Source: Parvularculaceae bacterium
GTDB taxonomy: Bacteria > Pseudomonadota > Alphaproteobacteria > Caulobacterales > Parvularculaceae
Reading direction: 5' to 3'
Assembly (NCBI GenBank): GCA_021776435.1
Contig: JAJFFW010000061.1
Coordinates: 1 to 39,279, forward strand
DNA length: 39,279 bases
A model generated the notes under the pieces. It worked only from the letters and a program-made list of their open reading frames with translations. It ran no database searches and was not told the DNA's origin. The translations under genes were made by a program, and so were the position numbers. Below, piece after piece: positions 1,723-14,583 of the stretch (the first letter of the stretch is position 1; each line of letters opens with the position of its first letter).

Positions 1723-3708
1723 ATGGTGGCTGAGATTGGTTTATTTGCACTCATATTGGCGCTCCTGACAGCCTTTGTTCAGGGTGTGTTTCCGCTCATT
1801 GGGGCGTCACGGGGTGATACTGCGCTTATGCGTCTTGCCCAGCCTGCGGCCCTTGTACAGTTCGTTCTTATCGCTCTGGCGTTTGGTTGCCTGACATTCG
1901 CTCACGCCACTTCGGATTTTTCTATTCTCAATGTTGTTGAGAACTCTCATACGTCAAAACCCTTCGCCTACAAGATTAGCGGCGTTTGGGGGAACCATGA
2001 AGGTTCAATGCTGCTTTGGGTTTTGATCCTTGCAGGTTTCGGCGCCATGTTGGCGGGGATCAAACCTCGATCATTGGCGACTTTGCGCGTTCGGGCGATT
2101 GCCATTCAAGGAATCGTAGCGACTGCTTTTCTTTCTTTTATCGTTTTTACGTCGAATCCTTTTGCGCGCATGTTTCCGGCGCCCGCTGACGGCATGGATC
2201 TCAATCCTCTTTTGCAAGATCCTGGATTAGCGATACATCCGCCTTTCCTTTATCTTGGCTATGTAGGATTTTCAGTCACTTTCGCCTATGCGATTGCAGG
2301 TCTACTGGAAGGCCGTATCGATTCGGACTGGGCGCGTGCGGTTCGGCCATGGGCGTTGGTGGCGTGGGTCTTTTTGACAATTGGAATCGCGTTGGGGTCC
2401 TGGTGGGCCTATTACGAATTGGGCTGGGGTGGATTCTGGGCGTGGGACCCGGTGGAGAATGCTTCCTTTATGCCTTGGCTCGCCGGTACTGCTTTTCTGC
2501 ACTCCGTGCGGGTTCTGGAAAAGCGAGATGCGCTTAAAGTATTGACTGTATTTCTAGCGATTCTCGCATTTTCGCTCAGCCTAATCGGCACGTTTCTTGT
2601 CCGTTCGGGGATTTTGACATCAGTTCATGCCTTCGCCGTCGATCCAGCGCGTGGTGTATTCATCCTGATTATTCTTGCCGCGACGATTGGTGGGTCGCTA
2701 ATGTTGTTCGCCTTGCGTGCACCGAGTTTGACGTCCTCGACAAGCTTTGCACCTGTCAGTCGCGAAGGTGCTATAGTTTTCAATAATGTGTTGTTGGTAG
2801 CGGCGTGTGCAACAGTGTTTGTAGGGACGTTTTACCCCTTATTCGTTGATATCACGAGCGGCGAGAGGATTTCTGTCGGGGCGCCCTATTTTAACGCCAC
2901 ATTTCTTCCATTAATGGCGATCAGCTTACTGATTTTGGCGCCAGCGGCGACTCTCGCGTGGAAACGCGGACGTCTCTCATTGGCGATGTCTCGATTGTGG
3001 CCAGCACTTGTGGTGGCGGGAGCCGTTTTTCTTCTCGCCGCCTGGATGAATTGGCCCAAGCCTATCGCTGCGGCCTTTGGTGCAGGACTTGCCGCCTGGG
3101 CGGGGGTCGGCGCCATTGCAGATCTGTTGGTGCGGATCAAAGCATTTGGTTCACCAATATCGGATAGCTGGCGGCGTTTTATGGGACTGCCGCTTTCTTA
3201 CACCGGCATGACGATTGCTCACACGGGGCTGGCGATTGTGGCGCTTGGTGTCATCGGCGCCGGTGTTTGGCGATCGGAAGACATTAAATACCTTCAGACT
3301 GGTGATAAGATATTTGCTGGCGCCTATGAGGCTGTCTTGACAGATGTGCGCGAAGGGCGCGGGCCCAATTATGTTTCGGAAATGGCGGTTTTCCGAATCG
3401 AGAAAAATGGAAAATTTCTTCGTGAGATGGCGTCGGAGCGTCGCTTCTATCCCATCCGGGGCATGCAGACGACCGAAGCCGGGATCTGGACAACGATCGC
3501 GGGTGACCTCTATCTCACATTAGGTGAAAGCAGTTCAAATCAGGGCTGGGCGGTGCGTGCTTATTTCAATCCATTTGTGCTTTGGCTCTGGATAGGGTCC
3601 GGGTTGATGGCGCTTGGCGGGATCGTCGCGGCAAGCGATGCGCCGCGGCTCCTCGAACGTCGCAGAAAGCTTAATCAGAGCGCAGCAACCCTAGCGGTAG
3701 AGGCGTAA
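1723..3708 (+). CDS. ccmF: Cytochrome c haem lyase subunit CcmF
   Basis: Large polytopic inner-membrane protein (661 aa) of System I cytochrome c maturation. It takes haem from CcmE and, with CcmH, attaches it to apocytochrome c on the periplasmic side. The tryptophan-rich WWD-type motif is clear around residues 232-250 (GWGGFWAWDPVENASFMPWL), and the conserved GVWGNHEGSMLLWV segment lies near residue 87. Many hydrophobic helices and a periplasmic domain between the last two helices match the family, as does the length. It is the first gene of ccmF-ccmG-ccmH-ccmI, with ccmG starting 7 bp after its stop. ccmA-E are not in the window, so the pathway must be split across the genome. An ATG at 1709 is out of frame; 1723 gives the expected N-terminus. 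Confidence 0.97.
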   Translation: MVAEIGLFALILALLTAFVQGVFPLIGASRGDTALMRLAQPAALVQFVLIALAFGCLTFAHATSDFSILNVVENSHTSKPFAYKISGVWGNHEGSMLLWVLILAGFGAMLAGIKPRSLATLRVRAIAIQGIVATAFLSFIVFTSNPFARMFPAPADGMDLNPLLQDPGLAIHPPFLYLGYVGFSVTFAYAIAGLLEGRIDSDWARAVRPWALVAWVFLTIGIALGSWWAYYELGWGGFWAWDPVENASFMPWLAGTAFLHSVRVLEKRDALKVLTVFLAILAFSLSLIGTFLVRSGILTSVHAFAVDPARGVFILIILAATIGGSLMLFALRAPSLTSSTSFAPVSREGAIVFNNVLLVAACATVFVGTFYPLFVDITSGERISVGAPYFNATFLPLMAISLLILAPAATLAWKRGRLSLAMSRLWPALVVAGAVFLLAAWMNWPKPIAAAFGAGLAAWAGVGAIADLLVRIKAFGSPISDSWRRFMGLPLSYTGMTIAHTGLAIVALGVIGAGVWRSEDIKYLQTGDKIFAGAYEAVLTDVREGRGPNYVSEMAVFRIEKNGKFLREMASERRFYPIRGMQTTEAGIWTTIAGDLYLTLGESSSNQGWAVRAYFNPFVLWLWIGSGLMALGGIVAASDAPRLLERRRKLNQSAATLAVEA

Positions 3709-3715
3709 TTCAATT

Positions 3716-4324
3716 ATGGCGCGTTTATTTTATCTCCTCCCATTGTCATTATTTCTCCTGCTCGGAATTTATTTCGCGGCAGGTCTAACGCGTGACCCAT
3801 CGCTGATACCGTCTGTTCTTTTGAACAAGCCGGCGCCCAGTTTTGATCTGCTGCCAATCGAGGGGTATGAAGATGGGTTTTCTTCGCAGGATTTGAGCGA
3901 TGAAGTTACGCTCGTCAACATTTTTGCGTCATGGTGTATCAGTTGTCAGATTGAGCATCCCATGCTGATGGAGCTGGCTGCGCAAGGGGACATTCCGGTC
4001 ATGGGGATTAATTGGAAAGATAAACCCGGCGATGGATCTGCGTGGCTCAAACGACATGGCGACCCCTATACCCTGATCGGTGATGATGCTAACGGCCGAA
4101 CGGCGATCGACTTTGGTGTAACGGGAGCACCGGAAACCTTTGTGATCGATAAAAATGGTAGAATTCGATACAAGCAGGTTGGGCCCATCACGCCCCAAAT
4201 CTGGCGAGATATTTTGAAACCGATGGTGGAGGATCTGCGCGATGCAGATGTGGAAAATTTTTCCGGCTCTGATGATGTTCTTGACGGCAATCATACAGAT
4301 AACGGGCCCGGCACAAGCAGTTGA
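3716..4324 (+). CDS. ccmG: Thiol:disulfide interchange protein CcmG/DsbE
   Basis: Membrane-anchored periplasmic thioredoxin-like reductant (202 aa) that keeps the CXXCH cysteines of apocytochrome c, and CcmH, reduced. An N-terminal anchor (residues 1-24) is followed by a thioredoxin fold with active site WCISC (C74, C77). The more usual family motif is WCxPC, so the Ser before the second Cys is a mild variant. The conserved GVTGAPETFVIDKNG segment, carrying the cis-proline-type loop, is present. The C-terminus is an acidic, low-complexity tail of about 30 residues beyond the fold. This tail is encoded in DNA that also encodes the start of ccmH in another frame (about 80-base overlap). Confidence 0.95.
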   Translation: MARLFYLLPLSLFLLLGIYFAAGLTRDPSLIPSVLLNKPAPSFDLLPIEGYEDGFSSQDLSDEVTLVNIFASWCISCQIEHPMLMELAAQGDIPVMGINWKDKPGDGSAWLKRHGDPYTLIGDDANGRTAIDFGVTGAPETFVIDKNGRIRYKQVGPITPQIWRDILKPMVEDLRDADVENFSGSDDVLDGNHTDNGPGTSS

Positions 4325-4712
4325 GCCGGATGAGATCTTGAGCGATTCCGTTCTTGAGGCGCGCGCGCGTGAGCTCAGCCGGCAACTTCGATGCGTTGTC
4401 TGTCAAAGCCAGAATATTGATGATTCCAATGCGCCTCTGGCGAAAGATTTACGTTTGCTGGTGCGTGAACGGCTTGTGGCTGGCGATTCAGATGATCAAG
4501 TGATTTCGTACCTTGTTGAGCGCTATGGGGATTACGTGCTTTTGAAACCTCCTGTTCAGCGCAATACATTGTTTTTGTGGGCAGCGCCGATTTTTGCGGT
4601 TGGCGCCGCCGGCGCAGTCGCGGCGTTTTATTTTCGTCGAACAGCCAAGGCGACGGCGCAAACAGCGTTAAGCGATGATGAGAAAAGCCGTATAGATAAG
4701 ATGTTAGGGTAG
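4242..4712 (+). CDS. ccmH: Cytochrome c maturation protein CcmH (CycL-type)
   Basis: Periplasmic, membrane-tethered thioredox subunit of the haem lyase complex (156 aa). A signal peptide (about residues 1-26, ending GPAQA) leads to the CcmH helical domain with its redox pair in RQLRCVVCQSQNI (C51, C54), then one transmembrane helix near residues 109-127 and a short cytoplasmic tail. The first ATG is at 4242 and a second at 4248; both lie inside ccmG. Even a start placed just before the signal-peptide core would overlap ccmG by about 50-80 bases, so the overlap is real. It ends 8 bp before ccmI, consistent with one operon. Confidence 0.93.
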   Translation: MQMWKIFPALMMFLTAIIQITGPAQAVEPDEILSDSVLEARARELSRQLRCVVCQSQNIDDSNAPLAKDLRLLVRERLVAGDSDDQVISYLVERYGDYVLLKPPVQRNTLFLWAAPIFAVGAAGAVAAFYFRRTAKATAQTALSDDEKSRIDKMLG

Positions 4713-4720
4713 GAACGAAA

Positions 4721-6358
4721 ATGCTTTTCTGGTTCGTCGTGTTTATGCTTTCTCTCTTCGGAGTTGGGGCAATCGTTTGGCCGATGGTGAATGCAAAAAG
4801 TGAATACGAACCCGAAGCGTCAGCGGGGGATTTGTTGAAAGCACGGCTTGCCGCCATCCAACAGGACAAGATTGCCGGGCTGATCGAAGAGGCCGTATGC
4901 GATGAGGCAATTCTCGAAGCAAAAAAACATGCCTTAGAAACTCAGGTGAATTCATCATCCCCTGTTCAGGCTCGTCTATGGCGGATAGCCGCACTGTTTT
5001 TTCTCGGCGCAACGCCGCTCGCCGCTGTCGTGATCTATCTTAATATCGGGTCACCAGCATCACTTCGTCCAAATACGGATCAGACGCTTGCAAGCGCGAC
5101 GACAACTGAGACTCTGGATGAACAGACTTCATCTCTTGAAGCGCGCGTACGAACGGCGCCGGAGGATTACGACGCTTGGATGAGGCTTGGGCAATCCTAT
5201 GCGACGTCTGGCCGGGCTGACGATGCCGTTAAGGCTTTCACGACTGCTTTAGAGCTTGAAGACGAAAAAGCCGACGCGCATGCGGCTTTGGGTGAGGCGC
5301 TTGTCATGCAGGCGAATGGCGCTATCACAGCGGAAGCTCGTACGGCCTTCGAAAAGGCCCTTAAAGTTGAACCAACCGACCCGCGATCTCAGTATTATCT
5401 GGCAGAAGGCCGTTATCAAGTTGGCGCCATTGACGAAGCTGCGGAGCGTTGGGCGTCGCTTATAAATAATGCGCCTGTTGATGCTCCGTGGCTTCCTGCT
5501 GTGGGCGCTCGCCTTATGGATGCGGCGAAAGAGGCTGGACTTGATCTCAATTCAATTGGTCTCGCAGACGGGCCCGCTCAATGGCTCGGCGCTCTTGCGC
5601 GCGGGGAACTGTCGGAGAGCGGCGGTGACCTCACTGCAGTCCTCGGCCGACTCCATGACGGGTCTGCGAGTTATGAAGATTGGCTTCTTGCAGCAACCAT
5701 TTATGTAGAACGTGGCGATGCAGATCGCGCCCGAGAGATTCTTGATCGTGCTGAAGAGGTTTATCAGGGGGCGCCATTCGTGCTTGGCCAGATCAATGAA
5801 GCGATGCTCCGGCTTGAAAATGGCCAACCGATTACGCCAACACAAAGCGGCGCATCTGTTCGCGGCCCCTCATCTGATCAGGTTCAAGCCGTTTCGGCCC
5901 TTCCCGAAGGAGAACAGAAAGCCATGATCGCCGGTATGGTCGAAGGGCTGGCCGATCGTTTGAAACGAGAGCCGGATGACATCGAGGGTTGGCGGATGTT
6001 GGCGAGGTCCTATCGTGTTCTTGGCGATCAGCAGGAAAGTCTGGCGGCGTATCAAGAGTTGACGAGGCGTTCGGAAAATAATCCGGATGATTGGCGAGAT
6101 TATGCTTTTACCCTTTTGGCGCAACGTCCAGAGGGTGACAATACAGTCAGTGATACGCTTCTTGGCGTGCTGGAAAAGCTTCAAGTATTTATCCCAGATG
6201 ATCCATTTGCACTCTACCATCTCGGTTTTGCGGCGCGCCAGCGTGGCGATTCAGAACTTGCCATAAGCCATTGGCGGCACCTTCTAGAGACGATGGCCGA
6301 TGACGTGTCGTTCCAGATGACGGTAGAGCAACTCATCACGGAAACTGAAAACAGTTAG
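4721..6358 (+). CDS. ccmI: Cytochrome c maturation chaperone CcmI (CycH)
   Basis: Apocytochrome c chaperone (545 aa) that binds the C-terminal helix of apocytochrome c and presents it to the CcmF/CcmH lyase. Two membrane segments are visible (residues 1-23 and roughly 87-112), enclosing a cytoplasmic loop with heptad-like character. A large periplasmic region follows with tetratricopeptide-like repeats (WMRLGQSYATSGRADDAVKA near 150, and again WRMLARSYRVLGDQQESLAA near 423). The ATG at 4721 has a good AGGAA ribosome-binding sequence. It is the last gene of the ccm operon and is followed by an inverted repeat that could end transcription. The C-terminal TPR part is longer than in minimal CcmI forms. 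Confidence 0.92.
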   Translation: MLFWFVVFMLSLFGVGAIVWPMVNAKSEYEPEASAGDLLKARLAAIQQDKIAGLIEEAVCDEAILEAKKHALETQVNSSSPVQARLWRIAALFFLGATPLAAVVIYLNIGSPASLRPNTDQTLASATTTETLDEQTSSLEARVRTAPEDYDAWMRLGQSYATSGRADDAVKAFTTALELEDEKADAHAALGEALVMQANGAITAEARTAFEKALKVEPTDPRSQYYLAEGRYQVGAIDEAAERWASLINNAPVDAPWLPAVGARLMDAAKEAGLDLNSIGLADGPAQWLGALARGELSESGGDLTAVLGRLHDGSASYEDWLLAATIYVERGDADRAREILDRAEEVYQGAPFVLGQINEAMLRLENGQPITPTQSGASVRGPSSDQVQAVSALPEGEQKAMIAGMVEGLADRLKREPDDIEGWRMLARSYRVLGDQQESLAAYQELTRRSENNPDDWRDYAFTLLAQRPEGDNTVSDTLLGVLEKLQVFIPDDPFALYHLGFAARQRGDSELAISHWRHLLETMADDVSFQMTVEQLITETENS

Positions 6359-6424: not shown

Positions 6425-6621
6425 CGGGCCCGCAGATAATGCTTTGAATATATTGAAAATATGTAGCGGCGCGAGGCGTCGTGTTTTTTTTGACATCATT
6501 GATGGAATAAACGCCATCGCTGGATCGTTAAGACAATACGACTATCCGGTTAATCTTCTAAACGACCCAATTGATCCGAAATGCAACCGTTGTTGATTGC
6601 ATGAGTTTAAGGAATCGAATA

Positions 6622-7806
6622 ATGCAGACCGCTTCATCGCCTGAATTTGCAGAAGAGACGCAAAGGTCGAGTAATTTACATCTAGAAGAAGCGGCGGAAG
6701 TCATAGCCGACGGAGAGATGCGATTGATTGGGCGTCGTATTTCTCAAGATCGAGTGAACTCAGCGAAGCGGTCATTCGTCACGAGACGGATTGATCTGTC
6801 TGAAGCGGCGTTCCTCGCAAAACCTAAGATGTCCCCGCAATCTGGAGATATTATCCTCGCGAAAGTGAGCGCTTTAGGTCAACACAGCAGGATTGAACTG
6901 CAGACAGGGCGGCGCGCCCGACTCTTTATCGGCGATGAGATTATCGTCTCTTATGCGGCTCGTTATGCACCAGATCAGTTTCATGCTGATATTCCAGCGG
7001 CGCACGGGCCGTGCGATCTCGTTGCCGCGGGCGGTATTGCGTCGGAAATGATTGACAAGCATAGAAGCATCAAGAATCCAACAAAAATTATTCCACTTGG
7101 TCTGCTTATCGACAAAGTGGGTGTGCCGTTGAATGTCAGCCGATCCGCGCTCTCTCCGATCGGTTTGTGCGAAGAAACTCAAGTGGGAACCCCCACGCAG
7201 GTCATTGCGGTCGTAGGATCTTGCATGAATGCAGGCAAGACGACGACTGCCGCATATATCGTTAAGTGCCTGAAGCGTTCTGGCTTGCGTGTTGCCGCCT
7301 GCAAGGTGACAGGTACTGGCGCTGGCGGCGATTACTGGCACATGCTCGATTCTGGAGCCCATCCAGTGCTCGATTTCACAGATGCTGGTTTTGCTTCAAC
7401 CTACCGACTTTCAATCGGCCAGATCCAAACAATTATGCAAACCTTGCTTTCGCACATAAAAACGACGGGTCCAGACATTGTTGTCGTGGAAATCGCTGAC
7501 GGGCTGTTGCAGGAGGAAACGGAGAAACTCGTAAAGTCGGAATTTTTCAAAGCGGTTACCTCAAGTATTGTGTACGCAGCTGGCGACGCCATGAGCGCAC
7601 TCACGGGGGTGACTATGCTCAAGAGTTGGGGATACTCACCCGCTGCGATAAGCGGGGCCATTTCCGAATCGCCACTCGCTTGCGCAGAAGCGATGAAAGT
7701 CACTGGTTTACCGGTTCTGACAAAAGAAGCCTTCTTACGACATGACGCTGTATCAAGTATTCTTATGAGCCCTGCGCATTATTCGAATGCTGGCGCGAAT
7801 GTCTGA
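6622..7806 (+). CDS. P-loop NTPase of unknown function, first gene of an ABC/hydrolase/porin operon
   Basis: I do not recognise a named family with certainty. The C-terminal half is a P-loop NTPase: Walker A GSCMNAGKTT at residues 199-208, then ACKVTGTGAGGDYWHMLDSG and an acidic hydrophobic strand (IVVVEIADGLL) that could serve as Walker B. The order resembles SIMIBI-class enzymes such as dethiobiotin synthetase, MobB and DUF1611 proteins. The N-terminal 190 residues contain a beta-rich stretch (GDIILAKVSALGQHSRIEL) with no known motif. There is no signal peptide or membrane helix, so it should be cytoplasmic. The frame is open from a TTG at 6571, but ATG 6622 has AAGGA eight bases upstream and is preferred (394 aa). 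It overlaps the ABC gene by 8 bp, implying translational coupling. Confidence 0.75.
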   Translation: MQTASSPEFAEETQRSSNLHLEEAAEVIADGEMRLIGRRISQDRVNSAKRSFVTRRIDLSEAAFLAKPKMSPQSGDIILAKVSALGQHSRIELQTGRRARLFIGDEIIVSYAARYAPDQFHADIPAAHGPCDLVAAGGIASEMIDKHRSIKNPTKIIPLGLLIDKVGVPLNVSRSALSPIGLCEETQVGTPTQVIAVVGSCMNAGKTTTAAYIVKCLKRSGLRVAACKVTGTGAGGDYWHMLDSGAHPVLDFTDAGFASTYRLSIGQIQTIMQTLLSHIKTTGPDIVVVEIADGLLQEETEKLVKSEFFKAVTSSIVYAAGDAMSALTGVTMLKSWGYSPAAISGAISESPLACAEAMKVTGLPVLTKEAFLRHDAVSSILMSPAHYSNAGANV

Positions 7807-9508
7807 TCTTCCGATAGTCATAGCACCGCCGCGACGGCGGCGTTTTGTTGAACTTATTTTCAATGGGTTCGGGCAGGCAATTTGTGCGATCGCTGTAGCG
7901 GTTGTTCTCAAGAGTGTCTTTGATGAACAGAGTCAAGATGGGGTCTCTCAAAATGAGAGGTTGGCCGTTAACGCGATTATTCTGCTTTTCACAGCATTGC
8001 TCCTAGCAGGTCTCAAATATCACGAACGCGTTGCTGCGGAGTGGTTAGGGCAAAATTACGTTACTGAAATTCGTGAGGTGTCATTTGCGCATCTCATGCG
8101 CTTATCAAATGTGGCGCAGACACGGCTGCGCGACGGTTCGGTGCTGCTGCGTTTTGTCAATGACCTTTCAGCGCTCAGGCAGTGGGTGAGCATCGGATTA
8201 GCGCGTCTCCTCGTCGCGACGGCGCTCGTAGTGGTGTCTCTTTTAGGATTATTTATTATCAATCCATTCATCGGTGGAATGCTGTTTTTGGCCGTGATTA
8301 TCGGCGCAGTCAGTGCTCTTGTACTTGGCGTCAAGATTGACGCATCGGTCCGGGCTGCACGTCGACAGCGAGCATTAATGGCGGCGAGTTTGAATGAACG
8401 GATTTCGCAACTTAACGTCATTCAAGCGTTTTCCAGGCGGCGCGATGAACGAAAGCGTTTAAAACGCCGATCGCGTAAACTTGGCGACGCATTGATTGGC
8501 CGTGCACGATGGATTGCGATGTTGAGGGCCGTGGTTCAACTGACGATGAGCCTATCGATTGCGCTGGTGGCTGTTGGCGGTATTTGGATGCTCGCTCACG
8601 GACTGGCAACGCGGGGAGAGCTTGTCGCCGCAATCAGTGTCGTTGGCCTTTTAACGCCAGCGGTATATGACCTTGGTCGCGTTTTTGAATACTGGCGTGG
8701 ATCGCGAATTGCTCGCGAGAAATTAATTAACCTTCTCGAAACGGGTCCGGTCCTCGCGACGAAGGGAGAACGGCGTCGCTTGTCGGCGCCTTCGGGGGAA
8801 GTTGAATTTTCTGATGTATCTGTAAACGGTCTGATAAGTAACTTTTCGGGCGTAGCGCCAGGTAATGGCCTGACTGTTATAAAGGGGCCAAACGGAGCGG
8901 GGAAAACAACTCTGCTCATGTTGGCGCTGCGTTTGCTTGAACCGGATCAAGGCGTCATCAGTGTCGATAAACAAGATATAGCGCGTGTTCAAGCGAATTC
9001 TCTAAGGCGAAAAATCGGTATCGTCTCTTTGGATTTCCCACTATTCAGAGGAACTGTGGAGAGCAACATTTTGTATGCAGTCCCAGATCTGTCTCAAGAA
9101 AGTCTCTCAGAGATTGCAAGAACATGCGATATTACGATCACGGACGATCGCAATGGACAAGGGGTTTATCTCCATAAATTTGTTGCAGAACATGGTTCAA
9201 ATCTGTCTACGGGACAGCAGATCCGTGTCATGATTGCACGAGCGTTGGCAAAAACGCCACGCATACTTTTGCTCGATGAGATCGATGCACATCTCGATAA
9301 TGACGGGCTGATGATGATCGAAAACATTATCAAGGCCCATAAAGGCAGTGTGATTGCTGTCACCAATAATGAACGCTTGTTGAGACATGCGAACGCCGTT
9401 TTGAATTTACCAGGAAAAACGAAGGGCTCAGTTGAGAGTAACCTTCATAGGGCGGAAATCCGTAACTCGGAAGTCGTTCGATTACATGCGGAAGAAAGTG
9501 AACGATGA
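7799..9508 (+). CDS. ABC exporter-type half transporter with atypical nucleotide-binding domain
   Basis: One-chain half transporter (569 aa): a six-helix exporter-type membrane domain (about residues 20-300), then an ATPase domain. Walker A GPNGAGKTT is at 363-371, the signature is LSTGQ (469-473) instead of LSGGQ, and Walker B is ILLLDEID with its catalytic Glu present (E494). Two normally conserved residues look replaced: the Q-loop position reads VSLDFPLF (Leu411 for Gln), and the H-loop position reads AVTNNE (Asn523 for His). It would act as a homodimer in the inner membrane. The ATG at 7799 overlaps the NTPase stop by 8 bp, and ATG 7787 is an alternative start. It overlaps the hydrolase gene by 4 bp. 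The substrate is unknown; a small cargo made or trimmed by the neighbours is an inference. Confidence 0.88.
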   Translation: MSDLPIVIAPPRRRRFVELIFNGFGQAICAIAVAVVLKSVFDEQSQDGVSQNERLAVNAIILLFTALLLAGLKYHERVAAEWLGQNYVTEIREVSFAHLMRLSNVAQTRLRDGSVLLRFVNDLSALRQWVSIGLARLLVATALVVVSLLGLFIINPFIGGMLFLAVIIGAVSALVLGVKIDASVRAARRQRALMAASLNERISQLNVIQAFSRRRDERKRLKRRSRKLGDALIGRARWIAMLRAVVQLTMSLSIALVAVGGIWMLAHGLATRGELVAAISVVGLLTPAVYDLGRVFEYWRGSRIAREKLINLLETGPVLATKGERRRLSAPSGEVEFSDVSVNGLISNFSGVAPGNGLTVIKGPNGAGKTTLLMLALRLLEPDQGVISVDKQDIARVQANSLRRKIGIVSLDFPLFRGTVESNILYAVPDLSQESLSEIARTCDITITDDRNGQGVYLHKFVAEHGSNLSTGQQIRVMIARALAKTPRILLLDEIDAHLDNDGLMMIENIIKAHKGSVIAVTNNERLLRHANAVLNLPGKTKGSVESNLHRAEIRNSEVVRLHAEESER

Positions 9509-10350
9509 CCACACATATATTCCCAAAAGGAAGAGTCTTTACCACCTTTGCACCAGACGGGTTGGACTTTTTTTGTTACCTTCCCGAGGTTATAAATCCT
9601 ACGCTTAATCCTCTTATCGTTGTTCACGGGTTATCGCGAAATGCGGCTGAACAAGCATTTCGATTTGCGAATTTCGCATCGAAATATGGTGTTCCGATAA
9701 TAGCGCCATTATTTAGCGCTGAAACACATCGGCATTTTCAACAGCTTTCAGTGGGTGCACACGGTGTGAGAGCGGACACGGCATTGATAGCGATGTTGGA
9801 TTTCGCAGAGGCGGCGCTCAATCTCAATTTAAAACGGCCATCATTTTTTGGGTATTCTGGAGGTGGGCAATTTGTACATCGCTTCGCGATGCTCTACCCA
9901 GATAGGGTCGCCTCGACTGTCTTGTTCGCTCCGGGATGGTACACGTTTCCGGACGACCAGCATTCGTTTCCATACGGCATCCGAGTTAAGAGTGGCAACG
10001 GGTTTCCAACCTTAAACATTGATCGATTTTGTCGAATTCCGACTCAAGTGTTGGTGGGAACCAAAGATATTGCGCGTGACGCCTCTCTCAATCGCGAGGC
10101 GAAAATTGACAGATTGCAAGGAAAAAATCGTCTGGAGCGGGCCCGCCGTTGGGTTGACGCAATTCAAAGTTACGCAGTCGATAATTCTATTACAGCCAAT
10201 GTATCCCTATCCGAAATTGATGGAGCCAGTCATTCATTTAAGCGGAATGTCGAGAAATTTAGTTTAATAGAAACCGTGTTTTCAAGTTTATATGGAGAAC
10301 ACGTGCAGGGTACGAAGCATCGTGAGATGGATGCTTTACGTTCGAATTAG
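9505..10350 (+). CDS. Alpha/beta hydrolase (esterase/peptidase-like)
   Basis: Cytoplasmic serine hydrolase of 281 aa with no signal peptide. The nucleophile elbow is GYSGGGQ (Ser118), the oxyanion-hole region is VVHGLSRN (His41-Gly42), and the catalytic His is probably His243 in DGASHSF. The acid is probably Asp188 or Asp192 after strand QVLVGTKD. The layout resembles polyhydroxybutyrate-depolymerase/feruloyl-esterase-like folds, but no substrate can be read from the sequence. Its ATGA start overlaps the ABC transporter stop by 4 bp, so the three genes are almost certainly co-translated. This suggests the hydrolase acts on the transported molecule or its precursor. This gene is visibly AT-richer than the hut and glpK regions, which could indicate transfer. 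Confidence 0.85.
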   Translation: MTTHIFPKGRVFTTFAPDGLDFFCYLPEVINPTLNPLIVVHGLSRNAAEQAFRFANFASKYGVPIIAPLFSAETHRHFQQLSVGAHGVRADTALIAMLDFAEAALNLNLKRPSFFGYSGGGQFVHRFAMLYPDRVASTVLFAPGWYTFPDDQHSFPYGIRVKSGNGFPTLNIDRFCRIPTQVLVGTKDIARDASLNREAKIDRLQGKNRLERARRWVDAIQSYAVDNSITANVSLSEIDGASHSFKRNVEKFSLIETVFSSLYGEHVQGTKHREMDALRSN

Positions 10351-10376
10351 ATTGTCGAAACGAGAGGGATATTTCA

Positions 10377-11579
10377 GTGCGTTTGCTGCGGCAGTTCATA
10401 GTCACGAGCCTTATGGCTATGATGTTCGTGTTCGGCGGACCGCCCTCTCACGCCGAAGTTAAAAAAGGGGATGGTGACTGGAGTGCGGATTTTGGAACGT
10501 CGGGACTTGCTATTCACACACCTGGCGATCATCTCTCACTCGAGTTTGGCGGTCGTTTTCACTTCGATGCAGTATCAATTGATGATGATGTGACCACATT
10601 TCGAGATGACGCAGATATTCGCCGGCTGCGCTTTGATGTCACTGGTGAAGTTTTAAATGATTGGCGGTTTAAAGTTGATGTTGATGTTGGCGGTACGAGC
10701 ACCGGTTTCAAAAATGTGTGGGTCTCTTATCGCGGGTTCGACAAGGTTGAATTGAAGGGAGGAAATTTCGCAGCGCCCTTCAGCATGGAAGATCTGATGA
10801 GCTCCAATGCGATTCCGATGATGGAGCGTTCATTGGCTCAAGCTCTCGCGCCAGGATTTTTAGTTGGCGGCGGGGCTCAGGCTTATGGTGATCACTGGAC
10901 GGTAAGCGGCGGATACTTTTTTAACCCAATCGATTTCGATCCTCAGTTCAATTCTGAATCCGGTGAAAGCGTCATGGGGCGTGTCACGTTCGCACCAGTT
11001 CGGAGTCGCAAACGCCTTCTTCACTTCGGGCTTGGTGTGGAACGTCGCGATCTCGACGGGGGCGTCGCTTCGCGCGTTCGATCGAGGCCCGAGATTGGGT
11101 TGGCCACAAATTCGCTTGTCAATACGCGCGCTTTGATGGGCGTGGATAAGTTCACCAATGTCAATGGAGAACTCGCATTGATGTACGGACCATTTCTTGT
11201 GCAGGGGCAATATATCCGCAGGTTCAATGATGCGCCCGCACTCGGCGATCCGGAATTTGACGGTGGATACATTCTGGCAAGTTGGGTCGTGACCGGCGAA
11301 AGCCGCCGCTATTCCCGCAGAAGTGGCGTATTTGGAAGTGTTAAGCCGAACTCCGAATTTGGCGCCATCGAAATTGTCGGCCGTTATTCAATGCTCGACC
11401 TCAATGACGGTTCTATAACAGGCGGTGAAGAAGAAAATGTATCCATTGGCGTGAATTGGTATATCGGAAAAAACATACGTCTGATGGGAAATTATATTCA
11501 TGCGAAAGCGGAGCCAAACAAAAACCTCGTGAGGGAATCGCTTGACGCTGTGCAAGGGCGCCTACAGGTGAATTTCTGA
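10377..11579 (+). CDS. OprO/OprP-type outer-membrane porin, last gene of the NTPase/ABC/hydrolase operon
   Basis: Outer-membrane beta-barrel of 400 aa in the Porin_O_P style. It has a signal peptide (residues about 1-27, ending SHA), then the family-typical opening LEFGGRFHFDA, an RRLRFDV strand, alternating beta strands, and a terminal Phe (GRLQVNF) as needed for barrel assembly. The start is GTG at 10377, supported by GAGAGGG about 8 bases upstream; no ATG upstream gives a signal peptide. It lies 26 bp after the hydrolase and is probably in the same transcript. It is a paralogue of the porin at 32772. Family members in Pseudomonas take up phosphate or polyphosphate, but whether that holds here is not known. 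It converges on moeA with only 9 bp between the stops. Confidence 0.87.
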   Translation: MRLLRQFIVTSLMAMMFVFGGPPSHAEVKKGDGDWSADFGTSGLAIHTPGDHLSLEFGGRFHFDAVSIDDDVTTFRDDADIRRLRFDVTGEVLNDWRFKVDVDVGGTSTGFKNVWVSYRGFDKVELKGGNFAAPFSMEDLMSSNAIPMMERSLAQALAPGFLVGGGAQAYGDHWTVSGGYFFNPIDFDPQFNSESGESVMGRVTFAPVRSRKRLLHFGLGVERRDLDGGVASRVRSRPEIGLATNSLVNTRALMGVDKFTNVNGELALMYGPFLVQGQYIRRFNDAPALGDPEFDGGYILASWVVTGESRRYSRRSGVFGSVKPNSEFGAIEIVGRYSMLDLNDGSITGGEEENVSIGVNWYIGKNIRLMGNYIHAKAEPNKNLVRESLDAVQGRLQVNF

Positions 11580-11588
11580 CGCCGCCCG

Positions 11589-12818
11589 TCATGCCAAATC
11601 AGGATCAAAAACCCCGATGTCTTCGAAAGGAAGAATTTGGCATGTCTCGCCCGTGTTTAACGGAGGCGTATTGGCGTCCTGAAAAATAAATGCATTAGAA
11701 CTTGCAAATGGTTGCAATAGAGAACTGTCTTGTTTGGTATGCGGCTGGGCGTGTAATATACCATCCGTATCAAGAGCGATGCAAGCGCGGGACAATGACG
11801 GACGCATTCCATTTTTTGCGAGTGGTGATGTGAGGCGTGCGTTTCGCAAGGGTAGCGCTGATTGTGGCTCCCGTCCAAGCATCGCATCGATCATTGGCTT
11901 CAAGAAGATGAAGGCGCAAACAAGTGCTGACGCCGGATTACCAGGCAATCCGAGTACGTGACCGTCATCAAGCGCGCCAAACCACACTGGTTTCCCCGGT
12001 CTGATAGAGACTTTCTCAAACTCAAATTTACCGCCGATGTCTGTAAAAGCGCGTTTCACAAAATCATAATCACCGACAGAGGCCCCGCCTAATGGTACGA
12101 TAACATGAGCATCCTGGTTGGCCTGCATGCGTGTCCTGACATCGTCGAGCGTATCCTTCGAGCAGCCGGCATAGGAAGGGTCAGCGCCCCAACGCATGAT
12201 AAGATTGCAAAGCGTGTAGCGCGTGGAATTAACGATTTGACCGGGCGCCAGTGCGGAACACGGCTCGACGAGCTCATCGCCATTCGAAAACAACGTGATG
12301 CGCGGGCGTTCGCTGACTTTGACCGACGGAAGGTTTGCCGCCGCGAAAAGAGAAGCATGAATATCGTTCAGGGTCTCTCCTTTGCGCGCGAGGATATCAC
12401 CAGCAGAAAAATCAATTCCAGCGCGCCTTATATTTCTGGGAGAAGATTGGTTTTCGACAACCGTGATGTCGTCGCCTTCGCGGCGGACGTGTTCCTGAAT
12501 GACGACATGGTCTGCGCTGGCCGGCATCACGCCGCCAGTAAAGATGCGGACGGCTTCTCCGGATTTGATGATCGGTGACTGGTCGCTTCCAGCGGCAATT
12601 TCACCGGTCACTTTCAATTTGGCGCCAGGTGTTCGAACATCTTCGAAGTGGACGGCGTAACCGTCCATTGCGGAGGCATTGAACGGGGGTTGTGTAATTG
12701 CAGCGCGAATGTCTTCCCCAACCGTGCGTCCGGAGAGGAATTCCAAGCCGACCTGCTCGATCGGCATGCGAGGGGCATTTTCAATAATAAGTTTTCTGGC
12801 GGATTCGATACTCAGCAT
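11589..12818 (-). CDS. moeA: Molybdopterin molybdenumtransferase MoeA
   Basis: Inserts molybdate into adenylylated molybdopterin in the last common step of molybdenum cofactor synthesis (409 aa, cytoplasmic). MoeA motifs are clear: SAMDGYAV near the N-terminus, the central MoCF domain with PLGGASVGDYDFV, and PGNPASALVCAF. The frame opens at a TTG (12845) that overlaps the moaC stop. However, ATG 12818 is preceded by an AGTAGG pairing sequence and gives the family-like start MLSIESARKLI, so I prefer it. It is the last gene of the minus-strand Moco operon. Confidence 0.94.
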   Translation of the reverse strand: MLSIESARKLIIENAPRMPIEQVGLEFLSGRTVGEDIRAAITQPPFNASAMDGYAVHFEDVRTPGAKLKVTGEIAAGSDQSPIIKSGEAVRIFTGGVMPASADHVVIQEHVRREGDDITVVENQSSPRNIRRAGIDFSAGDILARKGETLNDIHASLFAAANLPSVKVSERPRITLFSNGDELVEPCSALAPGQIVNSTRYTLCNLIMRWGADPSYAGCSKDTLDDVRTRMQANQDAHVIVPLGGASVGDYDFVKRAFTDIGGKFEFEKVSIRPGKPVWFGALDDGHVLGLPGNPASALVCAFIFLKPMIDAMLGREPQSALPLRNARLTSPLAKNGMRPSLSRACIALDTDGILHAQPHTKQDSSLLQPFASSNAFIFQDANTPPLNTGETCQILPFEDIGVFDPDLA

Positions 12819-12841
12819 AGGACCTACTCGGTAGAGGGTTG

Positions 12842-13309
12842 TCAATCTCCGGAACGCCCGCCAGACTTCTGGGTAAGGCGAATATTTTCAATCACCATTG
12901 TTTTATCGATGGCTTTCAACATGTCGTAGATTGTGAGGCAGGCGGTCGAAACCGCTGTTAAGGCTTCCATTTCGACCCCGGTCTGAGATGTGGTTTTAAC
13001 AACCGCACGCACGTTCAAAGCGTTATGTGCATCATCGAAAGAGACCTCTAGCGTGACACCGGTGAGAGAGAGCGGGTGGCAAAGCGGGATCAGATCCGAC
13101 GTCTTTTTGGCGCCCATCACGCCAGCCAGTTCAGCCACGGCGCAAACATCGCCTTTTTTCGAACCGCGTTCGCGGGCGATGGCATAGGCGGCGCTTGTTA
13201 GAACGACGCGGCCCTCGGCGACAGCGCGCCTTTCGGTGGCGTGCTTATCGGTAACATCGACCATGCGGACGCGCCCAGCGGCGTCAAAATGCGTCAAATC
13301 TTCCGCCAT
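12842..13309 (-). CDS. moaC: Cyclic pyranopterin monophosphate synthase MoaC
   Basis: Second enzyme of molybdenum cofactor synthesis (155 aa). It converts the MoaA product, 3',8-cyclo-7,8-dihydro-GTP, to cyclic pyranopterin monophosphate. The family's opening DVTDKHATERRAVAEGRV, the active-site region LIPLCHPLSLTGV and the helix TGVEMEALTAVSTACLTIYD are all present, and the length is as expected. The start at 13309 lies 3 bp after the moaB stop, and the stop is 23 bp before the chosen moeA ATG. Confidence 0.96.
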   Translation of the reverse strand: MAEDLTHFDAAGRVRMVDVTDKHATERRAVAEGRVVLTSAAYAIARERGSKKGDVCAVAELAGVMGAKKTSDLIPLCHPLSLTGVTLEVSFDDAHNALNVRAVVKTTSQTGVEMEALTAVSTACLTIYDMLKAIDKTMVIENIRLTQKSGGRSGD

Positions 13310-13312
13310 GAC

Positions 13313-13843
13313 TTATTTCTCCATGAGCCGCGGCATCAGCTCGACAAGGTTGCAAGGGCGTTGGCGGGCATCCAGTTGGTGGGAAATCACTTTGTCCCAA
13401 CCGTCTTTGACCGCGCCGTTCGAGCCCGGCAGGGCGAACACGAAGGTTCCCTTTGCGACTCCCGCAGTGGCGCGCGATTGCAGCGTCGATAATCCGACGC
13501 TCTGGAAACTGACATTGTGAAACACAACCGAGAACCCTTCGATTTCTTTTTCGAAGAGTGGCCGGATCGCCTCTGGCGTAATGTCACGGCCAGTGAGACC
13601 TGTGCCGCCTGTAGATATGACGACATCAACTGCTGGATCGTCGATCCAGGATTGGACGGCATTCGCGATTTCAGTGCGTTCATCCGTGACGATCTTGCGA
13701 TCCGCAAGCTGGTGCCCAGCTTTTTCGATACGTTCGGCGAGTATGGCGCCAGACGTATCGCTGTCCCAATCTCTGCTGTCACTGACCGTGAGAACGGCAA
13801 TGCGAACAGGGATGAATTCAGTATTTTCTTTATCGCCGTGCAT
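13313..13843 (-). CDS. moaB: Molybdopterin adenylyltransferase MoaB/Mog type
   Basis: Member of the MoaB/Mog family (176 aa) that adenylylates molybdopterin ahead of MoeA. The signature STGGTGLTGRDITPEA and a C-terminal GSNGAVKDGWDKVI stretch are visible, as in MoaB proteins. The ATG at 13843 overlaps the end of moaE by 14 bp, showing tight operon packing. Whether it is active as MogA or is a regulatory MoaB cannot be told from the sequence. It is the only MogA-like gene in the cluster, so it probably supplies the activity. Confidence 0.93.
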   Translation of the reverse strand: MHGDKENTEFIPVRIAVLTVSDSRDWDSDTSGAILAERIEKAGHQLADRKIVTDERTEIANAVQSWIDDPAVDVVISTGGTGLTGRDITPEAIRPLFEKEIEGFSVVFHNVSFQSVGLSTLQSRATAGVAKGTFVFALPGSNGAVKDGWDKVISHQLDARQRPCNLVELMPRLMEK

Positions 13844-14327
13844 TTTTAAATCCTTGTGGGGCAGGGTGAAGGTCTGCTGTTTTGGCGTAGTCTTCTAAAG
13901 TGGGTTCAATCCATCTGGAACCTGAAGCGGTCACTTCCTTTTTCCAGAATGGCGCCCGGGTTTTTAGATTGTCGATCAGAAATTCTGTGGCCGCGAGCGC
14001 TTCTTGTCGATGTATTGAAGCGGCTGCGACAAAAACAATCGGATCACCAGGCGCCATGGTTCCATACCGGTGAATGACGCTTACGCCGAGAAGCGGCCAT
14101 TGATCGTGTGCCGTGCGGCAGAGGTCTTCAATGGCGCGTTCGGTGACGCCCGGATAGCACTGAAGAATGAGGTGTTGAACGGGCTCATTCGCCCCGCTTT
14201 GACGCGTCACGCCCAGAAAGCTGGCGATCCCGCCAGCGTCGGGATGAGCGGCGGTAAATTCCGAGAGCGCGCGGCCGGGATCAAACGGCGCCGCCAAAAG
14301 CTTTATCGAAACCGGTTCACCACTCAT
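13830..14327 (-). CDS. moaE: Molybdopterin synthase catalytic subunit MoaE
   Basis: Large subunit of molybdopterin synthase (165 aa). With thiocarboxylated MoaD it converts cyclic pyranopterin monophosphate to molybdopterin. The active-site segment LKTRAPFWKKE with its lysines, the HRYGTMAPGDPIVFVAAAS segment and the GGIASFLGVTR opening are typical. The frame continues upstream to 14369, but that would lie inside moaD. ATG 14327, 5 bp after the moaD stop, gives a normal N-terminus (MSGEPVSIKLL). Confidence 0.94.
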   Translation of the reverse strand: MSGEPVSIKLLAAPFDPGRALSEFTAAHPDAGGIASFLGVTRQSGANEPVQHLILQCYPGVTERAIEDLCRTAHDQWPLLGVSVIHRYGTMAPGDPIVFVAAASIHRQEALAATEFLIDNLKTRAPFWKKEVTASGSRWIEPTLEDYAKTADLHPAPQGFKNARR

Positions 14328-14331
14328 CGGA

Positions 14332-14583
14332 TTATCCACCGCTGAAGGGGGGCATGAAGGCGATTTCATCGCAGTCTTTGATGCAGCCCATTTCCGTAAC
14401 GATTTCGCCGTTTACCGCAATGCGCGTTGAAGGATCACGCAACGCGGCGCCCAAAACCAAATCTTCTCGATTGAGGACATCAAGAATGGTCTTGAGTTTA
14501 GTTTCAGGTTCGGGCAGCGAAAATTCACGCTCAACACCGCCGGCCATGTCACCAAGGCGACCGAAGAATAATAATGTCGCCAT
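14332..14583 (-). CDS. moaD: Molybdopterin synthase sulfur carrier MoaD
   Basis: Ubiquitin-like sulfur carrier of 83 aa that ends in the required Gly-Gly (PPFSGG). The C-terminal Gly is adenylylated and thiocarboxylated to donate sulfur to MoaE. The family core LFFGRLGDMAGG is at the start. A strong ribosome-binding sequence (GGGAGGATAAG) precedes the ATG. It sits directly upstream of its partner moaE and 2 bp after moaA. The activating enzyme MoeB is not in this window. Confidence 0.94.
   Translation of the reverse strand: MATLLFFGRLGDMAGGVEREFSLPEPETKLKTILDVLNREDLVLGAALRDPSTRIAVNGEIVTEMGCIKDCDEIAFMPPFSGG

Follow-up and report, generated by a model that had tools for sequence, protein, structure and literature searches.

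The four-gene operon and its products

The window analysed here is a stretch of 39,279 nt from a Parvularculaceae bacterium and makes up a single contig in a draft genome of 2.96 Mb. According to its ORFs, four genes follow each other on the forward strand at 6622-11579, coding for a P-loop NTPase, an ABC exporter, an alpha/beta hydrolase, and an OprO/P-family porin. The NTPase gene (6622-7806, 394 aa) starts with ATG 6622, preceded by AAGGA, within an ORF that is open from a TTG at 6571. The gene for the ABC exporter (7799-9508, 569 aa; start at ATG 7799 in an ORF open from an ATG at 7787) overlaps it by 8 bp, the hydrolase gene (9505-10350, 281 aa) overlaps the ABC gene by 4 bp, and the porin gene (10377-11579) starts with GTG 10377, 26 bp past the end of the hydrolase gene and with GAGAGGGA upstream of its start. 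The layout given in the preliminary description is thereby borne out. A terminator-like hairpin with a T-run (6466-6485, forward strand), for which the hairpin search returned two overlapping matches against a mean of 0.5 (sd 0.8) in shuffled sequences, is predicted to set the operon apart from the upstream gene. Past the porin gene, a convergent ORF ends at 11589. By eye, the upstream flank (1723-6358) resembles cytochrome c maturation genes and the downstream flank (11589-14583) a molybdopterin cluster.

The AlphaFold2 model of the NTPase (84-row alignment, pLDDT 91) consists of an all-beta N-domain (residues ca 23-163) and a P-loop C-domain (ca 189-384); the beta-rich N-domain that had been proposed earlier is thus predicted with high confidence. 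The best Pfam matches are MobB (8e-6) and DUF1611 (0.003), both below the Pfam cut-offs. An identity as MobB was rejected because the scores fall below both curated cut-offs (26.2 of 26.6 bits for PF03205 and 30.9 of 76.2 bits for TIGR00176), and DUF1611 (PF07755) reaches 17.5 bits against a gathering score of 25. Among the NCBIfam matches listed (25 of 189 for the ABC protein), no cut-off was reached by any of the four operon proteins.

Upon structure comparison, the C-domain matches dethiobiotin synthetase (BioD; Z 16.1), Ffh (15.6), and CTP synthase (15.5), values that are in effect tied. DUF1611 proteins share the P-loop domain (Z 14.8 for 2g0t and 14.6 for 2obn, a non-specific likeness given that other SIMIBI-type folds score as high), with alignments that start at residue 122 or 139, ahead of that domain. 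Most of the top Foldseek rows are filled by SRP GTPases; the matches listed mainly cover the C-domain, and absence of a family from them does not count as evidence. The earlier assignment as a SIMIBI-like NTPase can thus be refined, the C-domain being similar to SRP GTPases but also to dethiobiotin synthetase, to CTP synthase, and to DUF1611. Because the scores of BioD, Ffh, and CTP synthase are tied, the modelled fold alone decides neither for a ligase nor for a GTPase. Seven residues are invariant in 93 rows: G199, G205, and K206 of the Walker A motif together with K228, D237, D243, and E290. The motif K..TGT..D lines up in register with that of BioD, where the Lys is followed by two additional residues. 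This register and the invariant residues K228, D237, D243, and E290 favour the ligase side. Dethiobiotin synthetase, CTP synthase, and the cobyrinate amidases use ATP, and this class of NTPases forms C-N bonds. While the C-domain fold, the P-loop, and the K..TGT..D motif are shared with BioD and the N-domain of CTP synthase, the window protein differs from BioD by its additional all-beta N-domain, and no BioD model is among its matches.

The second protein has the domain layout of a half-transporter (ABC_membrane, 1e-20; ABC_tran, 8e-25 in Pfam), as found in ABC exporters of the CydDC/MsbA type. However, among the matches listed (25 of 189) the curated NCBIfam cut-offs are far from being reached (CydD, 193 of 435 bits; CydC, 157 of 329 bits). 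Pfam detects no peptidase domain on this protein, and no gene for a binding protein was seen in the operon. The H-loop His, which is present in 56 of 70 aligned rows, is replaced by Asn523 (9365-9367; residue counted from ATG 7799, the number being 4 higher when counted from ATG 7787), and this copy could thus be impaired or run an atypical cycle. A role in anti-phage defence was considered and discarded, as PADLOC models match only the ABC protein, in its ATPase domain.

The alpha/beta serine hydrolase of the preliminary description can be specified further. Its best Pfam match, Abhydrolase_1 (2e-4), stays under the cut-off, but a sequence profile retrieves PahZ1 from Pedobacter strain KP-2 (E 2.2e-52), PahZ1 from Sphingomonas strain KT-1 (1e-49), and LpqC from Bordetella (5e-47), with the next match at 4e-6. 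The AlphaFold2 model (pLDDT 93) leads to the same proteins, both with Foldseek (E 8e-20 to 5e-19; next 6e-12) and by Z score (29.2, 29.4, and 28.4 for KP-2, KT-1, and LpqC, respectively; next 20.4). On the basis of profile and predicted fold, the enzyme is assigned to the PahZ1/LpqC family, with which it also shares the motifs FVHR and QGxxRxxR and the intact triad S118-D188-H243 (conserved in 75, 69, and 75 of 75 rows, respectively). Residues R126, R209, and R212 are conserved in all 75 rows. In contrast to the family members, the window enzyme is encoded within a transporter operon and has no signal-like N-terminus. It is therefore probably cytoplasmic. By the crude hydrophobicity rule used for this call, signal-like N-termini occur in 6/73 hydrolases, 1/101 NTPases, and 21/28 porins, the porin from the window being among those that have one.

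PahZ1 of strain KP-2 is described as attacking synthetic polyaspartate in the manner of an endo-hydrolase, at beta-Asp amide bonds; it accepts beta-tri(Asp), rejects beta-di(Asp), and is related by its authors to PHB depolymerases (PMC4456602). Weak PHB-depolymerase models also match the window hydrolase, and LpqC is labelled as a polyester depolymerase.

The fourth protein is a member of Porin_O_P (PF07396, 4e-62; 211 bits against a gathering score of 20.9). As in OprO/OprP porins, the match spans the whole profile; it differs from these in being an optional part of its system (see below), and its anion selectivity is putative.

Recurrence and distribution of the gene set

A scan of genome contigs with NTPase profile A1 returned at least 580 relatives among at least 591 candidate stretches, from which the best 80 were kept. 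Since L092 is from the same record as L016, 79 loci remain, and the counts below refer to these. Their genes were called with simple ORF rules and with HMMs built from the same loci, so that weak members may have escaped. According to record titles, the best 80 are mostly from Pseudomonadota but also from Cyanobacteriota, Actinomycetota, Acidobacteriota, and others; many are metagenome bins. A related-locus search with a single protein gave 43 stretches, none of which was confirmed.

The neighbourhood survey of NTPase homologues that had been proposed earlier shows that the gene set recurs. Of the 72 loci whose downstream sequence exceeds 1.2 kb, 62 have an ABC gene directly 3' of the NTPase gene and in the same orientation; the hydrolase gene is nearby in 59/70 loci (missing in 11), and an OprO/P porin gene is present in 23/61. 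Ten loci have no ABC gene next to the NTPase gene, and the hydrolase gene is near in all of them. The prospect that the homologues would mostly occur without the ABC and hydrolase genes is thus contradicted, as all 72 loci have either the former adjacent (62) or the latter close by (10). Three loci with neither gene end within ca 1 kb of the NTPase gene. The joint occurrence of the genes extends over several phyla, and a chance neighbourhood is ruled out by recurrence across the 79 loci.

In eight of the ten loci without an adjacent ABC gene, the hydrolase gene is followed by a gene for an MFS transporter (confirmed as MFS_1, PF07690, in the three that were run against Pfam). Seven of these are present in the NTPase tree and group together (two changes) in what is a quick tree, in which the distant rows are joined by long branches. 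Of the ten, L050 has an ABC gene upstream on the opposite strand, and neither an ABC nor an MFS gene was found in L097. Given the porin frequency (23/61) and the occurrence of MFS instead of ABC in eight loci, the core consists of NTPase, hydrolase, and a transporter, with the porin being optional. The view of the operon as a coupled, envelope-spanning set of four genes is hence supported with respect to recurrence and has to be relaxed with respect to the porin and the type of transporter.

The gene order of the window (NTPase-ABC-hydrolase-porin) recurs in two copies from genome G096 (L015, L016), and G004 has the same four genes in a rearranged order. The order hydrolase-NTPase-ABC, with no match to the porin, is found on plasmids of Paracoccus (two), Sulfitobacter (one), and Tritonibacter (one). 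In L095, the NTPase is split over two ORFs. HlyD-like genes lie beside three copies (L011, L076, L096); the underlying model, built from three sequences, has no match among the window ORFs. Other outer-membrane channels near copies are Porin_4 (L039) and OprB (L059). Genes resembling CapA (PGA_cap; Pfam was run on two) lie near six related copies, reminiscent of the poly-gamma-glutamate capsule system, whereas there is no CapA-like gene in the window. Asp/Asn beta-hydroxylase genes are found near some copies. The commonest neighbours, among 136 of 151 listed proteins scanned and the 25 of 90 families listed, are histidine kinases and response regulators (HATPase_c, 13; Response_reg, 8).

Counting the own genome, the NTPase is encoded in 6/100 relatives, in 20/385 genomes of the class, and in 5/398 genomes of a phylum sample (the latter two with profile A1 at E 1e-10). 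Plasmid-borne relatives of the NTPase are found in eight records, of which two hold distant ones (27-31% identity). The patchy distribution together with the plasmid copies suggests horizontal transfer.

Distant homologues of the NTPase and arginine biosynthesis

Homologues with neither the ABC nor the hydrolase gene exist in distant clades, which are ca 23-37% identical to the window NTPase. Five of these adjoin argB/argC (L128:7190-8236, L129:7610-8653, L130:8053-9135, L131:7457-8518, L141:7119-8234) and show ca 23-29% identity. In the examples analysed, argC and OTC exceed the cut-off among their neighbours, argB and argD fall short of it, and a gene for an ArgR repressor is also present. 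Two others, representing two families of the class, lie next to a gene for an asparaginase of the isoaspartyl-peptidase type (Asparaginase_2; L126:3043-5021, L127:7325-9316), L126 also carrying a further ABC gene on the opposite strand, at a distance of 4 kb. Homologues in L132 and L140 adjoin genes for M20 amidohydrolases/peptidases, and one (L125) lies alone. On a plasmid of Priestia megaterium (L014:5730-14418), a homologue is located amid genes annotated as PEP mutase-type, ATP-grasp (two), TPP-related (two), OTC, and M20, a cluster which looks like a phosphonate-type pathway. When six distant homologues were compared to Pfam and five to NCBIfam, no cut-off was passed except by the Priestia protein, which is just over that of CbiA (26.6 vs. 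25.4 bits). Taken together, these neighbourhoods point to amide bonds of acidic amino acids as a putative common theme, with which the Asp/Asn beta-hydroxylase and PGA_cap genes close to some of the operon copies are in line.

No ArgJ was found in any of five genomes with an Arg-cluster homologue (G433, G356, G129, G415, G334; the count leaves out G718, which carries L141, and for G356 the absence is judged from the position of its ArgB-like match). In these five genomes, the match to the ArgA model falls on the ArgB-like gene and does not extend beyond model position 281-305 of 429. As the own genome likewise has no match to ArgJ or ArgA, these absences alone prove little, and other N-acetylglutamate synthases are possible. 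We nevertheless regard the Arg-cluster homologues as candidates for an alternative N-acylglutamate synthase. If the proposal below holds, one gap becomes directly testable, namely which enzyme supplies N-acylglutamate where argB and argC are present while ArgJ and a classic ArgA are missing.

Proposed role and alternative readings

Both the NTPase and the hydrolase have conserved catalytic residues. We tentatively propose, at somewhat below an even chance, that the operon is a conserved system which makes, exports, and trims a product derived from acidic amino acids. The NTPase would use ATP to activate a carboxylate (or an equivalent group) and form an amide on Asp or Glu, yielding a small anionic amide or a short beta-linked oligomer. 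The ABC exporter, assisted by HlyD in some lineages and replaced by an MFS pump in one group, would export this product from the cytoplasm; in loci with an OprO/P porin, the anion would then cross the outer membrane through it. The hydrolase would act in the cytoplasm and cleave the product for turnover or self-protection. That ABC can be replaced by MFS speaks for a small product rather than a secreted protein; it also weakens a long exported polymer as the sole reading. While the preliminary description had left export versus import as an inference, making or trimming followed by export fits best.

Several observations do not sit easily with this proposal. As Ffh (Z 15.6) ties with BioD (Z 16.1), ligase chemistry does not follow from the fold. 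PahZ1 of strain KP-2 is reported to need at least three Asp units (PMC4456602), whereas the exchange of ABC for MFS suggests that the product is small. To these are added Asn523 in the ABC protein, the 11/70 loci from which the hydrolase is absent, and the low identity (only ca 23-29%) of the Arg-cluster homologues.

The reverse direction is conceivable: acidic amino-acid oligomers would enter through porin and transporter, the cytoplasmic hydrolase would cut them, and the NTPase would N-acylate the monomers for catabolism. The presence of a porin, the probable location of the hydrolase, and the likeness of the NTPase to DUF1611 are in line with such scavenging; DgcN, which we take to be one of the DUF1611 proteins, is said to N-acylate D-Glu for catabolism. 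Also, the PahZ1 enzymes came from polyaspartate-degrading isolates, according to PMC4456602. We consider it unlikely, however: the ABC protein belongs to the exporters by type, the operon shows no gene for a binding protein, the HlyD adaptors found beside three copies are partners of exporters, and copies also occur in Actinomycetota, which have no outer membrane.

An ester substrate for the hydrolase is possible, since LpqC is labelled as a polyester depolymerase and PahZ1 is known from its action on a synthetic polymer. If the enzyme were a polyester or lactone esterase, as the matches to LpqC and to the weak PHB-depolymerase models would allow, the product might be a hydroxy-acid ester (polymalate- or siderophore-like). 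The class proposed for the NTPase, though, forms C-N bonds, and no TonB receptor is prominent among the neighbour families listed (25 of 90). With the characterised homologue PahZ1 reported to cut amides (PMC4456602), ester chemistry appears rather improbable to us.

There is even less to be expected from a MobB/HypB/CobW-like chaperone in an operon that traffics a metal or cofactor. Weak MobB matches, a fold of the SIMIBI type for which SRP GTPases rank near the top, and the molybdopterin-like cluster seen by eye next door in the window would agree with it. But the MobB scores reach neither curated cut-off, the neighbour families listed (25 of 90) include none for molybdopterin, and a PahZ1-type hydrolase would be left without an evident role. 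Secretion of a peptide or bacteriocin by a type I-like system, with NTPase or hydrolase as maturation enzyme, is very improbable despite the exporter-type ABC and the HlyD genes in three loci, because the ABC protein has no peptidase domain, no HlyD match occurs in the window, and MFS replaces ABC in one locus group.

Returning to the make-export-trim reading, we found no relevant paper on the gene set and its chemistry in the open-access literature (most subscription papers being outside the search). Within the family libraries and literature searched, the statement that no named system has this composition stands; the parts appear to be known folds in a combination that is undescribed within that scope. 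If the proposal is true, it provides a natural setting and a candidate class of natural substrates for the PahZ1 family, which was characterised on synthetic polyaspartate, and adds a new family of ATP-dependent amide-forming enzymes. In a bolder version, which we think doubtful, a widespread but undescribed bacterial pathway would make and export a native beta-linked oligo-aspartate or a related acidic isopeptide, and the new BioD-like ligase family would also supply the missing first step of arginine biosynthesis in some alphaproteobacteria. Such a pathway, if true, would account for the natural occurrence of polyaspartate hydrolases.

Apart from the operon proper, genes for an S8 subtilase, an ECF sigma factor, and an anti-sigma factor were considered as part of the core and rejected, since they flank a minority of copies and are unlinked in the own genome. 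There, an S8 subtilase with acidic repeats, an ECF sigma factor, and an anti-sigma-like gene are encoded on contig C91 (L138:6553-9934). With the own genome, the source of the query, left out, an S8 gene (E 1e-40) is present in 4/4 NTPase-carrying relatives, two of which are from one genus and hence non-independent, compared to 11/56 others; with the own genome counted, it is present in 5/5 carriers (Fisher p 0.0007). Genes for DUF6502 and DUF5666 proteins recur near several operon copies (L063:7617-9667, L045:3855-5315).
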